From Flavobacteriales bacterium (GTDB taxonomy: Bacteria; Bacteroidota; Bacteroidia; Flavobacteriales_D; Sanyastnellaceae): DNA of 54,586 bases. The stretch covers positions 1 to 54,586 of the forward strand of contig JADHLY010000008.1 of NCBI GenBank assembly GCA_016780385.1, in the 5' to 3' direction. Below are positions 4,514-14,808 of the stretch, in pieces (position 1 is the first letter of the stretch; each line of letters starts with the position of its first letter). The notes under the pieces were generated by a model. It was given only the letters and a program-made list of their open reading frames with translations, ran no database searches and was not told the origin of the DNA. A program made the position numbers and the translations under genes.

Positions 4514-5887
4514 TTTGGAAGGCGTCCAGCTCAGGTGAAGCAATGGCTGTCCGGTTGCATCAGAGGGTGAAGTCGGCAAGGCAACAAGACGGCTGATGCG
4601 GTGCCCGACGAGCCAGACGATCTGACCGGCGGCGTCTTCAAGCACCCATTGGCCGTTGCGGTCGGCGGCGGGCACCTTGCGCTGGGTCAGGATATCGGAG
4701 ACAAGCTGGTGGCCTGTCATGCCGAGCGGGGCCATGCGGTCGCCATCTGTCCAGGTCCGAAGCTGCAAAGGCATGGCCAGGTCCGTCAGCACGACATCGG
4801 CGGTGAGGTCCCCAGCATCGGGCGTGTGAGGCCCATCCGCAGTCGAAGTGTGCCAGGTCAAGGTGCCGTCAGGCGTGTCGATACTGCCGTGGGCATGATC
4901 CAAGGCAGGGTCCCAATTTCTGGGCGACCGGTCCAGCTCACCGGCCATCGCATGGACGACCAGGGCATCGCGTTCCCGGATGACAACATGGGTGGCCGAA
5001 GCATGGCGGCGGCCGACTTCGGTGTCGGGTTGTGCCAAAGCGGCCAAGGCAGCGGCCTGCGCGGGGCCAAAACCGAAGGCTTCGCCCCACACCCCGAGCA
5101 GGTGCAGCGCCGAGGGCGCTTGTCTGACCGCATCGAGCGGCAAGGTCAGGGGGTCATCCGCCACAGTGCTGTGAAGGGACTCGATGTGCTGGCGCCACTC
5201 CGTCGCCAGGGCACCCATGCGCTCCAGCCCGTGGGCCCATCCCGGACGGATGCTGTCCAGCAGGGGAATCAGCTCGCCCCGGATGCGGTTGCGCAGAAAG
5301 TCGGGCAGGGCATTGGTCGGGTCTTCGCGCCAAGGGGTATTGGCCTGTTCCAATGCTGCCCTCAGCATGGATTTTTCGATGTCCAGAAAAGGCCGGCCAA
5401 GCGCAAAACCCCATTGGGTCTGCCATGGCGACATGCCGGCAAGGGCCTCAGGGCGGCTGCCCCGAAGCAGGTGCAGGAGCCGCGTTTCCCTTTGGTCATC
5501 GGCGTGGTGTGCGGTGAGCACGATACCGCCTGGCCCTGTAGCTGTGGCCATCCAGCCATAGCGGGCCGCGCGGGCCGCCGCCTCCAATCCCAAGGACTTG
5601 CGTTCCGCAGAGGTGGTCAGGCCCTGCACGGCATGTTCCTGGAAGGCCCATCCTTTTTGTGCAGTGCGTTCTCGCACAAAAGCCAAAATATCCGCGGCCT
5701 GAGGGTGCAATCCGTGGTCGACGTGCAGCACGCCGAAGTCCCAAGGCAGCCCATCGGCTGCTTCCAGCAGGGCCATGGAGTCCAAGCCGCCAGATACCGC
5801 GAGCCATACGCGGCTATGACGTGGTGTGCTGCGGCGGTCCAACAGGCCGTGAACCGCCCTGCTGAGGGTGGACATGATCTCAGCCAT
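4511..5887 (-). CDS. tilS: tRNA(Ile)-lysidine synthase
   Basis: TilS attaches lysine to C34 of the AUA-reading tRNA-Ile2 using ATP, changing its decoding from AUG to AUA. The N-type ATP-pyrophosphatase P-loop SGGLDS is at about residues 32-37. HVDHGLHPQA and TAHHADDQRETRLLHLLRGS follow, and EDPTNALPDFLRNRIR is another TilS hallmark. The C-terminal region (LRTWTDGDRMAPLGM) matches the TilS C-terminal tRNA-binding domain. The predicted length is 458 residues. The open frame runs further upstream into pabB, but the family start fits the ATG at 5887, which overlaps the pabB stop by 8 nt. An ATG at 5875 is an alternative. The overlap implies translational coupling to pabB. Confidence 0.93.
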   Translation of the reverse strand: MAEIMSTLSRAVHGLLDRRSTPRHSRVWLAVSGGLDSMALLEAADGLPWDFGVLHVDHGLHPQAADILAFVRERTAQKGWAFQEHAVQGLTTSAERKSLGLEAAARAARYGWMATATGPGGIVLTAHHADDQRETRLLHLLRGSRPEALAGMSPWQTQWGFALGRPFLDIEKSMLRAALEQANTPWREDPTNALPDFLRNRIRGELIPLLDSIRPGWAHGLERMGALATEWRQHIESLHSTVADDPLTLPLDAVRQAPSALHLLGVWGEAFGFGPAQAAALAALAQPDTEVGRRHASATHVVIRERDALVVHAMAGELDRSPRNWDPALDHAHGSIDTPDGTLTWHTSTADGPHTPDAGDLTADVVLTDLAMPLQLRTWTDGDRMAPLGMTGHQLVSDILTQRKVPAADRNGQWVLEDAAGQIVWLVGHRISRLVALPTSPSDATGQPLLHLSWTPSK

Positions 5888-7244
5888 GTTTTCCCTGCAT
5901 TGTGCGCTCTTCCGGCGCCGCATTTGTTCCTGCCCCCAAGACTTCGAGCACCGATTGCGCTTTGAGGAGGGTCTCTGCCCATTCGCTGTCCGCGGCCGCC
6001 AAGGCCGTGATGGCGCCACCGACATGTACGCTCCAGCGGCTTTGGGCGCGGTCAATCACCGCCGTCCGGATGACCACATTCAGATGGAAATCGCCTGCAT
6101 CTCCTGCGCCGTTGGGCTCGGCCCACCCGAGGGTGCCGGAATAGAGCCCGCGCTGCACCGGCTCGGTTACTGCCGTGATTTCCATGGCCCTCAATTTGGG
6201 CGCCCCCGTCATGCTGCCCATGGGAAATGTGGCCCGGAGGATATCGGCGAAGCACACATCGTCGCGCACTGTGCACGACACAGTGGAGACCATTTGATGG
6301 ACGTTGCGAAAGCTGTAGATGCCGCAGAGCTCGTCGACCTCCACGCTGGCGGGCCGAGCCACCCGGCTGAGGTCATTGCGTACGAGGTCGGTGATCATGA
6401 CGTTTTCAGCGCGCTCTTTGGGATCTGTGCGCAAGCGTTCGGCCGCTTCGGCATCGGCTTGAGGGTCGGCCATCCGTGCCGCGGTGCCCTTGATGGGCCG
6501 AGAGACGAGCCGTCCGCCTTCGCGCTGAAGGAAGCACTCCGGACTCGCGCACAGGATGTCCACCACACCACTTGTGACGAACGCTGAGTACGGCGCCAGC
6601 GTGCGCGCTACCAGGGCGCCAAAGGCCGAGTGCGCGCTGAAGTCCTCAGGCAAAGCGCCGTTGAGCTCTCGGCAGAGGTTCAGTTCGTAGATGTCACCAC
6701 GGAGGATGTGGCGGTGGACTTTTTCAAAGGCCGCGCGATAGGTGTCCGCGTGGAGGCTGCTCGAAACGGGCAGCGCATGCGCCCCGTCATGCAACTCAGG
6801 GCCTGCTGTGATGGGGTGGGCAACAGCCGATTCCATGGCCGCTGCCAAGGCGGCATCGTCAGGAGCGGTCAGCCAATGGCAAGAAGCCTGAGGGCCGGTT
6901 CCTTTAAATGCCAGCACCGCCTCAGGTTCCACCCAATGCACCACGGGCAACGCCACATGGGGCGGCTTCTGGTCAGGCAAATCCAACATGGGGTCCGCCC
7001 TCAACTGGTCGTATCCAATCCAGCCGACGCACCGCCCTGAGGCCGCGCCGACAAATGCGCCGATTTGATCAAATGCGTCGGCGGTCGCTGTGGAAAGGGT
7101 GAGCCGCCGGCGCTCACCAATGGCGAGCATACCGCTGATGGCCCCCGGATGGTCGGAGGCATCCAGCAACAGCCAAGGGGCATGCTCGCCCAGACCTTGA
7201 AGGTCGGGCAGGGCCAAATGGGACGACGTTGCTGTGGGGTTCAC
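5880..7244 (-). CDS. pabB: Aminodeoxychorismate synthase component I
   Basis: The 454-residue chorismate-binding enzyme would convert chorismate to 4-amino-4-deoxychorismate for folate synthesis. The C-terminal half carries the family motifs: LRGDIYELNLCREL, PECFLQREGGRLVSRPIKGT, ERAENVMITDLVRNDLSRV and FPMGSMTGAPKLRAMEI. The PIKGT lysine (K252) is the residue that distinguishes PabB-type enzymes from anthranilate synthase, which has PIAGT. No pabA (glutaminase) or pabC (lyase) is adjacent. It starts at a GTG 3 nt downstream of hemH and overlaps tilS, so hemH, pabB and tilS look like one transcript. Confidence 0.92.
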   Translation of the reverse strand: MNPTATSSHLALPDLQGLGEHAPWLLLDASDHPGAISGMLAIGERRRLTLSTATADAFDQIGAFVGAASGRCVGWIGYDQLRADPMLDLPDQKPPHVALPVVHWVEPEAVLAFKGTGPQASCHWLTAPDDAALAAAMESAVAHPITAGPELHDGAHALPVSSSLHADTYRAAFEKVHRHILRGDIYELNLCRELNGALPEDFSAHSAFGALVARTLAPYSAFVTSGVVDILCASPECFLQREGGRLVSRPIKGTAARMADPQADAEAAERLRTDPKERAENVMITDLVRNDLSRVARPASVEVDELCGIYSFRNVHQMVSTVSCTVRDDVCFADILRATFPMGSMTGAPKLRAMEITAVTEPVQRGLYSGTLGWAEPNGAGDAGDFHLNVVIRTAVIDRAQSRWSVHVGGAITALAAADSEWAETLLKAQSVLEVLGAGTNAAPEERTMQGKHG

Positions 7245-12281: not shown

Positions 12282-12300
12282 GTCGTTGTCTATGATAAAA

Positions 12301-12329
12301 GTCAACGTTTCCGTTGACCCATGTCAACG
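12301..12329. promoter_or_regulatory. Three alternating GTCAACG heptamers at 11-bp steps (operator or RNA switch candidate)
   Basis: GTCAACG occurs at 12301-12307, its reverse complement CGTTGAC at 12312-12318, and GTCAACG again at 12323-12329. The spacers are both 4 bp (TTTC and CCAT), so the heptamers begin exactly 11 bp apart, about one helical turn. The middle copy forms a perfect 7-bp dyad with either neighbour. The cluster lies 19 bp after the exporter stop and 53 bp before the oxidase ATG, the only untranslated stretch ahead of that cassette. No T-run follows, so it does not look like a simple terminator. Confidence 0.6.
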
Positions 12330-12382
12330 GTGTTGTTTCACATTTCTCATTTGTTGCAGTCCGAACTCAATTTCTGACTGCC

Positions 12383-13126
12383 ATGAATGTCTTGCCCCCC
12401 CCTGCACGTGTCACCTTTCTCATCAGTGAGGCTGAAGCACACCGGGCCCTGCATCATCCGTATTTGAACGCCCTCAAAGAGGGTTCTTTGCCCGATCCGA
12501 TGGGGGCGTTGCAACGCTTTGCGTCGGAGTATGCGGTGTATACCCGGTCCTTCCAGAATTACCTGCTCATCTGCATGAGCAAGCTCGAAAACCAGCGACA
12601 CCGCAGCATACTCTTGGAAAACCTCTGTGAGGAAAGCGGCCGCATCGACGAGGATGAATTGGCGGAGATCGCGGAACTGGGCATCCAGCCTGACTGGGTC
12701 CAAGGCGTGCCCCATCCCGAGCTGTTTGCCCGCTTCAGACAGGCCATAGGCGCTGTGGATACTCCGGAGACTGGAGAGGTGGCCCAGACGTGGAAAGAAC
12801 TGTTCATCGCGCAATTGACCCAGGCCAGTGCAGCGGAAGCATTGGGGGCATTGGGGTTGGGTACCGAGAGCATTGTCAAACACTTCTACCGTCCATTGAT
12901 GGAGGCCATCCGCTTGCACACCACAGTGTCCCGGCGTGAGGCGGTGTTTTTTGAGCTGCACGCCGAATTGGACGACGAACATGGCGAATTGATGCTCCAA
13001 ATCGCAGAGGAACTGATCGCTGAGAATCCCGCCAACTATGAAGCGATGAAGCAGGGCATGCGCAAGGCGCTCGGCCTTCGTTCGCTCTTCTGTGACCGCA
13101 TGTTGGAACTGGAAATGAACCGCTAA
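12383..13126 (+). CDS. Haem-oxygenase-like di-iron oxidase (iron-containing redox enzyme family)
   Basis: The all-helical 247-residue protein shows the six-ligand pattern of haem-oxygenase-like di-iron oxidases and oxygenases (the CADD, UndA, SznF superfamily). Ligand candidates are E83 or E84 in ENLCEESG, H111 in HPELF, E162 in GTESIV, and H193/D197/H200 in ELHAELDDEHGE (H-x3-D-x2-H). E84 and H111 are separated by an acidic stretch that looks like an insertion. Characterised members perform N-oxygenation, C-C cleavage or p-aminobenzoate formation, so the reaction here cannot be read from the fold. The ATG at 12383 is preferred because residues encoded upstream of it do not look like the family. 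It is 9 nt upstream of the methyltransferase, implying one operon. Confidence 0.8.
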   Translation: MNVLPPPARVTFLISEAEAHRALHHPYLNALKEGSLPDPMGALQRFASEYAVYTRSFQNYLLICMSKLENQRHRSILLENLCEESGRIDEDELAEIAELGIQPDWVQGVPHPELFARFRQAIGAVDTPETGEVAQTWKELFIAQLTQASAAEALGALGLGTESIVKHFYRPLMEAIRLHTTVSRREAVFFELHAELDDEHGELMLQIAEELIAENPANYEAMKQGMRKALGLRSLFCDRMLELEMNR

Positions 13127-13135
13127 GGCAACACC

Positions 13136-13888
13136 ATGGAAGCAAAAGAGATATATGACGGCCATGCGGACCTCTGGGTCCGCCATGAACCCATCTTGTT
13201 GTCCGACTATTCGGCCAGGCCCAGGGTGCTGGAATTGTGTGGCGATGTCAAGGGGATGTCCATCCTCGACCTCGGCTGTGGCGAGGGCTATGTTGGGCGT
13301 CAACTCGCTCAGCGGGGGGCAACCAGCGTTGAGGGATATGACGTTTCCGATGGCATGATTGACGGGGCCCGAAAGGCGGCCGCAGCTGCGGGTTTGTCCA
13401 ATTTGAAATACGCCGTTTCGGACTTGCGCCAGGCTGAATTCGGTTCGCCACAAGAGCCCGTCGACCTCGTGGTGGCGGTCTTCCTTTTCAACTACATGGA
13501 CGCTGATTCAATGTGCCGCATCCTGAGGCGTACACGGGCTGTTCTCAAGCCGGGTGGGCGTGTCATTTTCACCGTGCCGCATCCCCTTTTGCCGTGGATC
13601 AAGCCCGTTGAAAAGCCCTTTTACATGCGGCCCGAAGGGGGGTATTTGTCGGCCGTTGACGTCCCATTTCCCGGCCGGATTTGGAGGCGTGATGGCGCCT
13701 CTGTGGAAGTTCAAGCTGTCCACAAGACGTTCACGACGTATTTCAACGCCTTGGCAGAGGCTGGTTTCACTGCCATGCCGCTTGTAGAAGAGCTGCACAT
13801 CACCGCCGAACATGTAGCGCTCGACCCGGACTTTTTCGGTCCACTGGTCGACTTGCCGTTGCATGTGGCTTTTTCCCTATCGCCATGA
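13136..13888 (+). CDS. Class I SAM-dependent methyltransferase
   Basis: The protein has 250 residues. Motif I is SILDLGCGEGYVG at about residues 42-54. The acidic end of beta-2 is EGYDVSDGMI, the post-motif is YAVSDLRQAEFG, and LKPGGRVIFTVPHPLLP is motif III. The C-terminal half (PGRIWRRDG, VHKTFTTYFNALAEAGF) resembles small-molecule methyltransferases of the ubiquinone/trans-aconitate type, so the acceptor is more likely a metabolite than RNA or protein. It lies between the di-iron oxidase (9-nt gap) and the TauD-like gene (4-nt ATGA overlap), so its substrate is probably an intermediate of that cassette. Confidence 0.85.
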   Translation: MEAKEIYDGHADLWVRHEPILLSDYSARPRVLELCGDVKGMSILDLGCGEGYVGRQLAQRGATSVEGYDVSDGMIDGARKAAAAAGLSNLKYAVSDLRQAEFGSPQEPVDLVVAVFLFNYMDADSMCRILRRTRAVLKPGGRVIFTVPHPLLPWIKPVEKPFYMRPEGGYLSAVDVPFPGRIWRRDGASVEVQAVHKTFTTYFNALAEAGFTAMPLVEELHITAEHVALDPDFFGPLVDLPLHVAFSLSP

Positions 13889-14808
13889 CCAATCAAATGC
13901 ACCCCCCATTTTCCAACCGGACAACGGTGGTTCGGTTGCCCATCCCGCATGGCTTGAGGATGGCCTTGCCCGCGAGCGATAAGGCGGAATTGGCCTTGGC
14001 TCAAGTGCTCGCAGGTGACGCTGTGCCCCGTTTGAACGTCGACCCGCTCGCCGCGCAGCTCACCTCCACACAAGGCCATGCCGTCTTGGGCGCCCCGGCA
14101 TCGTGGACGGACACTCAACTGCGCTGGGCCTATGCTGTGTTGTTGCGGCAGTTGGGCAGCCTCAATGGCCGCTATGGAAAGTTGTTCGACGTGGTGGATC
14201 AAGGGTTGGACCACACGATCACCAATGCCCCCGTCTCCAAGACCAAGGCGGCCACAGGGATGCACACCGACAGCAGCGATGCCCGGTACAATCCCGATTT
14301 GGTGGGTTTGTTGTGTCTGCAGCCGGGTTCGAGAGGAGGTGAGTCTCTGCTGGCGAGCGCCATTGAGATGTTGGAGCGGCTCAAGCAACGGCACCCTGAA
14401 TTGGAATCCGTAGCCCGAACCCCTTGGCCCCGCGATGTGGTCACGCCTGGACTGGCCCAGGATTTGGCGGCCATTGAAGCCAATGCGATTCCGGTATTCG
14501 CTCAGGATGAGCACGGACCCGTGTTCCGGTACATGCGGTATTGGACGGAGAGGGCCATGGCCAAACTCGGTCAGCCCATCCCGGTGCAATTGACCCGGCT
14601 GTTCGATTTCATTGACGCAGACATGGCCGATAACGCGTTGAATTTCAGACTCAAGCGCGGCGACATTCTGTTGGTCAATAACCGCCTCGTCGTACATGGC
14701 AGGGGTGCGTTCGAGGATGCCCCTGGCGCTGCCCGGCGCTGTTTGGTTCGCGCATGGGTCGATGGATTTGTCGATTCACACGGCGAACGTTTGCCCTTGC
14801 GGGCTTGA
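13885..14808 (+). CDS. TauD/TfdA-family Fe(II)/2-oxoglutarate dioxygenase
   Basis: The predicted 307-residue enzyme carries a complete facial triad: H127 and D129 in GMHTDSS and the distal H271 in [10 protein letters not shown]. Arginines in ARRCLVRAW (R285 or R289) could bind 2-oxoglutarate. NRLVVHGR followed by a conserved arginine about 14-18 residues later is typical of the TauD/clavaminate-synthase-like fold. Such enzymes hydroxylate, desaturate or cyclise small substrates. The start overlaps the methyltransferase stop (ATGA), so translation is probably coupled. rfbA begins 17 nt after the stop, and the transcript may continue into it. Confidence 0.85.

Follow-up and report, generated by a model that had tools for sequence, protein, structure and literature searches.

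Tandem FNR/CRP-type boxes as a predicted operator of an oxidase-methyltransferase-dioxygenase cassette in an uncultured Flavobacteriales genus

Results

Three alternating heptamers form part of two tandem palindromes

The stretch of DNA analysed here (the window; 54,586 nucleotides, contig JADHLY010000008.1 of a Flavobacteriales genome, G000) carries three genes, flanked by RND and rfbA genes, for an iron-containing redox enzyme, a methyltransferase and a dioxygenase. The features of this cassette and of its leader are as follows.

12292..12305, plus strand: box 1, an FNR/CRP-type palindrome, ATGAT-AAAA-GTCAA (ATGATAAAAGTCAA), with a degenerate left half; predicted centre at -63.5
12314..12327, plus strand: box 2, TTGAC-CCAT-GTCAA (TTGACCCATGTCAA), an exact palindrome; predicted centre at -41.5
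12301-12307 (plus), 12312-12318 (minus) and 12323-12329 (plus): GTCAACG heptamers, with 4-bp spacers and 11-bp steps
12301..12329, plus strand: span of the three heptamers, made up of the right half of box 1 and both halves of box 2
12350..12357, plus strand: predicted -7 element TTTGTTGC, positions -12 to -5; an approximate match only
12362, plus strand: predicted transcription start, from the placement of the -7 element
12383..13126, plus strand: cassette gene 1, haem-oxygenase-like iron-containing redox enzyme (PF14518), 247 aa
13136..13888, plus strand: cassette gene 2, SAM-dependent methyltransferase, 250 aa
13885..14808, plus strand: cassette gene 3, TauD/TfdA-type 2-oxoglutarate dioxygenase, 307 aa

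The original prediction had described three GTCAACG heptamers of alternating orientation ahead of the cassette, and their coordinates, spacers and steps were all found exactly as described. The window shows no enrichment of GTCAACG by itself, with 11 copies against 8.3 expected. None of 100 dinucleotide shuffles contained the alternating triple at this spacing, and a search for triples of any heptamer with an equal spacer of 0-10 bp returned one in the window, as against two in 200 simulated windows. We conclude that the triple in the window is not due to chance. The heptamers are accompanied by a fourth, degenerate half-site, TGAT, at 12293-12296, and the inverted repeat around box 2 is perfect over 18 bp (CGTTGACCCATGTCAACG, 12312-12329).

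We compared the cassette leaders of 11 genomes of the same genus, including that of the window; the orthologous leaders were found through homology of the cassette DNA and proteins, independently of the motif. A pair of TGAC/TGAT-N4-GTCA/ATCA palindromes, with starts exactly 22 bp apart, was present in 10 of the 11 leaders, while the surrounding bases diverge. Only the TGAC/GTCA cores are kept in the orthologues, and the identity of the heptamers is lost. The boxes are 14-bp palindromes with a TGAC-N4-GTCA core, and their centres are 22 bp, or two helical turns, apart. Both have the symmetry of CRP/FNR-type sites (TGA and TCA half-sites separated by 6 bp), which is perfect in box 2, the left half-site of box 1 being TGAT. 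We read the element as two separate FNR/CRP-type palindromes and not as a three-site array. The alternation and the 11-bp step of the heptamers would follow from tandem N4 palindromes phased at 22 bp, with flanking bases that agree by chance. The proposal of an operator for the cassette stands insofar as the element is operator-like and is conserved upstream of orthologous cassettes in related genomes, and the placement of its sites on one face of the helix agrees with the phasing; the three equivalent sites sharing a middle one have to be given up, since the orthologues have two palindromes 22 bp apart.

The RND and rfbA genes are adjacent, with no cassette and no tandem box between them, in genomes G084, G091 and G094. 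Relocated cassettes in G091 and G094 have a box pair that has decayed and is comparably far from the gene for the oxidase; at the relocated cassettes L209 and L205, box 1 is retained and box 2 has decayed. Moreover, in G087, which is without the oxidase and methyltransferase genes, perfect tandem boxes lie directly before the dioxygenase gene alone (L101). Judged from these loci, the tandem boxes follow the cassette. The cassette itself (window 12383-14808; L101, L203-L207, L209) is mobile or dispensable, being absent from the RND-rfbA interval of G084, moved in G091 and G094 and reduced to the dioxygenase gene in G087. No relatives of the cassette oxidase were found in a scan of IMG/VR.

The tandem boxes recur upstream of other genes

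We collected further sites by pattern searches for close matches to the tandem pattern in 17 genomes of the genus and 97 genomes from other genera of the family. With up to two mismatches, the pattern was found in all 17 genomes of the genus, at 1-11 sites each, as against 0-3 for the reversed pattern. With at most one mismatch, the 17 genomes of the genus gave 62 sites, against 2 for the reversed control, and the 97 genomes of other genera gave 28, against 0; most of the genomes are incomplete assemblies from metagenomes, and the counts are not phylogenetically independent. When two exact boxes were sought with the gap left free between 0 and 30 bp, the 24 matches in the genus had a gap of 10 (20 matches) or 11 bp (4 matches) only, and the control gave none. 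Only three non-coding tandem sites in G000 itself pass at one or two mismatches; a match with two mismatches on its contig C21 falls in a coding frame and was put down to chance. We take the tandem boxes to be a regulon signal.

In the genus, the boxes precede the gene for a NO synthase oxygenase (PF02898), with that for a beta-carbonic anhydrase on their other side in divergent orientation. A second divergent pair of genes codes for a Dps-like ferritin and a secreted protein. Further putative targets encode an OB-fold protein, the large subunit of exonuclease VII (xseA), small secreted proteins, a sulfotransferase and a tryptophan-halogenase-like FAD protein. In the other genera of this family and order, the boxes lie upstream of ccoN and ccoS (cbb3 oxidase) and of genes for Hsp20, UspA, a sulfide-quinone-reductase-like protein (SQR) and a PAS histidine kinase, a set of the type that is classic for FNR and FixK.

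At L090:6248-8379, L092, L093, L097 and L103, all from relatives in the genus, the tandem boxes lie between the divergently oriented genes for NO synthase oxygenase and beta-carbonic anhydrase. Proteorhodopsin-like and brp/blh-like genes (L091:374-2048 and 5302-6876) are near the box-bearing gene for the tryptophan-halogenase-like FAD protein. At L224:3597-5083, a gene 3' of a tandem box with a gap of 11 bp codes for a secreted protein with a CASCHH motif that resembles di-haem peroxidases.

A conserved block downstream of the boxes resembles the Bacteroidota -7 element

The sequences downstream of the boxes were stacked for 25 gene types, weighted by type. A single block is conserved, at a constant distance from the boxes. 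Position +24 is A in 61% of cases, +27 and +28 are T in 83% and 78%, +29 is T or G, and +30 is G in 47%. The -7 element of Flavobacterium psychrophilum is TAnnTTTG or TAnnTTGY, at positions -12 to -5 (PMC9723704), and we assign the block at +23 to +30 to the Bacteroidota -7 element by this likeness. No conserved -33 element was seen in the stack. Placing the -7 element in this way puts the predicted start of the cassette transcript at about 12362. Relative to this predicted start, the centre of box 1 is at -63.5 and that of box 2 at -41.5, the latter being the position of a class II activator site. The pair is predicted to have the geometry of class II activation by CRP/FNR proteins, with a second, upstream dimer in class III-like fashion.

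A receiver-CRP hybrid is the candidate regulator

A search of the genus with HTH_Crp found only two kinds of CRP/FNR protein, one of 350 and one of 213 aa; a third CRP-like group of matches proved to be DtxR/MntR proteins. The 213-aa protein may be a sulfur-responsive regulator (L099:3850-7717). The longer protein is a receiver-cNMP_binding-HTH_Crp hybrid, here called REC-CRP, and provides the genome with a CRP/FNR regulator of the cognate type:

G000:C8:32090-33139, minus strand: REC-CRP, receiver-cNMP_binding-HTH_Crp hybrid, 350 aa

Its recognition helix reads VGTA[KT]ESLIR[AT]LSDFK, with DFR in some members, and the Glu and Arg positions that CRP and FNR use are invariant in 28 sequences of the family. 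The helix was also compared with those of E. coli CRP and FNR, and the recognition Glu aligns with the solved structure of M. tuberculosis CRP. An N-terminal cysteine cluster of the FNR type is absent from the REC-CRP sequence, the N-terminus being the receiver domain. In CRP/FNR regulators, residues 180/181 predict the half-site, and the published consensus of one subgroup, HcpR, is TTGACnnnnGTCAA (PMC1274295).

In G022, G025, G031, G037 and G040, the distance between a tandem box and the REC-CRP gene is no more than about 7 kb. The gene order is box-Hsp20-PAS kinase-REC-CRP in G025 and G031, followed in G031 by UspA, and in G037 a tandem box is between REC-CRP and UspA. Outside the genus, tandem boxes with at most one mismatch were found in 14 of 37 genomes with REC-CRP and in 4 of 60 without it (Fisher p = 0.00025, kinship ignored); the other 23 genomes with REC-CRP have no tandem site at one mismatch. 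REC-CRP was not found in two box-bearing genomes of the genus, G087 and G097, which are incomplete (64% and 60% complete). The link between REC-CRP and the boxes is thus a statistical one. A PAS histidine kinase, its PAS domain matched by sequence, accompanies REC-CRP in other genera. Searches for this kinase in the genus gave matches to the kinase core only and no full-length orthologue, and REC-CRP appears to be an orphan there. We regard REC-CRP as the most likely binder of the boxes. No direct description of receiver-CRP fusions, or of Bacteroidota FNR regulons with such a motif, was found in a search of the open literature.

Discussion

We think it likely that the two boxes form a tandem operator of FNR/CRP dimer sites that activates the cassette in class II/III-like fashion, with REC-CRP as the likeliest activator. 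An activator dimer of the CRP/FNR family would bind each box, both on the same face of the DNA; the proximal dimer, on box 2, would contact RNA polymerase as in class II promoters and the distal one would help, in a class III-like manner. The promoter would be of the Bacteroidota sigma-A type without a recognisable -33 element. The cassette would be switched on alongside a small regulon of genes for NO synthase, carbonic anhydrase, Dps-like ferritin, the OB-fold protein, xseA, the sulfotransferase and others. REC-CRP has the make-up of a phosphorylation-type regulator, and its binding, activation and phosphorylation are proposed here from sequence. In other genera, REC-CRP together with the PAS histidine kinase may control cbb3 oxidase, Hsp20 and UspA, a microaerobic or redox programme, and the signal of this ancestral system is probably oxygen limitation or redox. 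For the genus, low oxygen or redox is a conservative guess from the relatives of REC-CRP.

That a different transcription factor binds the boxes, either the stand-alone 213-aa CRP/FNR protein (L099:7085-7717, minus strand) or a dimeric regulator from outside the CRP family that has a TGAC-N4-GTCA site, seems to us unlikely. Short palindromes of this kind are bound by several regulator families, and the 213-aa protein occurs in 11 of the 17 genomes of the genus; it was not, however, detected in G091 and G093, which bear boxes and are 96% and 97% complete. Its recognition helix has Val at the position where CRP/FNR proteins that read TTGA or GTGA have Glu (rule from PMC1274295), and the neighbours of its gene (L099:3850-7717) code for a SulP transporter and for an MBL-fold protein similar to persulfide dioxygenases, which suggests a sulfur role. 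Genomic linkage and the cco/Hsp20/UspA regulon also fit REC-CRP. An operator for an oligomeric repressor, made of three equivalent heptamers, would account for the three exact copies at 11-bp steps in G000, but the orthologues have four half-sites arranged as two N4-spaced palindromes, and the flanks of the heptamers vary. Moreover, the sites are upstream of the -7 element, at the fixed positions -41.5 and -63.5, with no conserved -33 element, which is the geometry of an activator; we hold a repressor of this sort to be very improbable.

The original prediction also raised a leader switch, in which the middle arm would pair with either neighbour and two mutually exclusive 7-bp hairpins would control the cassette mRNA. 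The RNA fold of the region in G000 is good (-28 kcal/mol, z = -4.3), although this is expected for any perfect palindrome. Most orthologues keep 4-6 of the 7 pairs of the first hairpin and 4-7 of the second, with only the TGAC/GTCA core constant, so that conserved alternative helices within the transcript were not found. The repeats are upstream of the predicted transcript, which would start at about 12362, and this argues against an RNA switch. Unrelated genes also have the tandem element ahead of them, in either orientation, and it is found between divergent genes; a search of Rfam gave no match. A leader switch is therefore scarcely credible.

The tandem operator with REC-CRP also bears on how the regulon may have changed. 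The cbb3 oxidase is missing from 16 of the 17 genomes of the genus and was found only in G094. This lone copy (L217; G094:C421:3266-5386) is 69 percent identical to that of another genus and may be contamination or a relic. Together with the apparent orphan state of REC-CRP, the absence of cbb3 oxidase from 16 of 17 genomes suggests that the regulon has been rewired: the operator architecture seems to have been kept, with a change of targets to NO synthase, carbonic anhydrase, Dps and the oxidase-methyltransferase-dioxygenase cassette. It is a tentative idea, somewhat less probable than its negation, that a microaerobic REC-CRP lost its kinase and, nearly always, cbb3, and drives a new regulon through operators strictly phased at 22 bp in response to a new input, possibly a cross-talking kinase or NO itself. 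The analysis yields an operator code that can be tested, namely two TGAC-N4-GTCA boxes at 22 bp followed after a further 23 bp by a -7 element. It names a candidate regulator for this uncultured genus of Flavobacteriales and brings a bacterial NO synthase and the uncharacterised oxidase-methyltransferase-dioxygenase cassette under one predicted switch. It may also provide a clean case of regulon rewiring, with the operator architecture retained and the ancestral cbb3 targets and partner kinase lost.

The FNR box is TTGATnnnnATCAA and the FixK/FnrN box TTGANCNNGATCAANG, at -41.5 in class II promoters. The present boxes share with them the TTGA-N6-TCAA dimer geometry, the predicted position at -41.5 and, in relatives, cbb3 oxidase, Hsp20 and UspA as targets. 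They differ in being typically tandem at 22 (23) bp, in their preference for TTGAC/GTCAA and in the Bacteroidota -7 promoter, and the candidate regulator, unlike FNR, is a receiver-domain hybrid without the iron-sulfur cysteine cluster. The alphaproteobacterial FixL-FixJ-FixK oxygen cascade likewise brings together a PAS kinase, a receiver, a CRP-type DNA-binding module and cbb3 targets; here, in contrast, receiver and CRP module are in one protein and the kinase is apparently missing in the genus. Cyanobacterial HcpR, of the same CRP/FNR family, has sites of identical 14-bp consensus (PMC1274295), but these are single sites controlling hcp and norB, and no hcp target was among the sites read here. 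Finally, the class III CRP promoters of E. coli also use a tandem pair of dimer sites, one at -41.5 and one farther upstream, whereas in the present operators the spacing is fixed at 22 or 23 bp and the putative regulator is from another subgroup.
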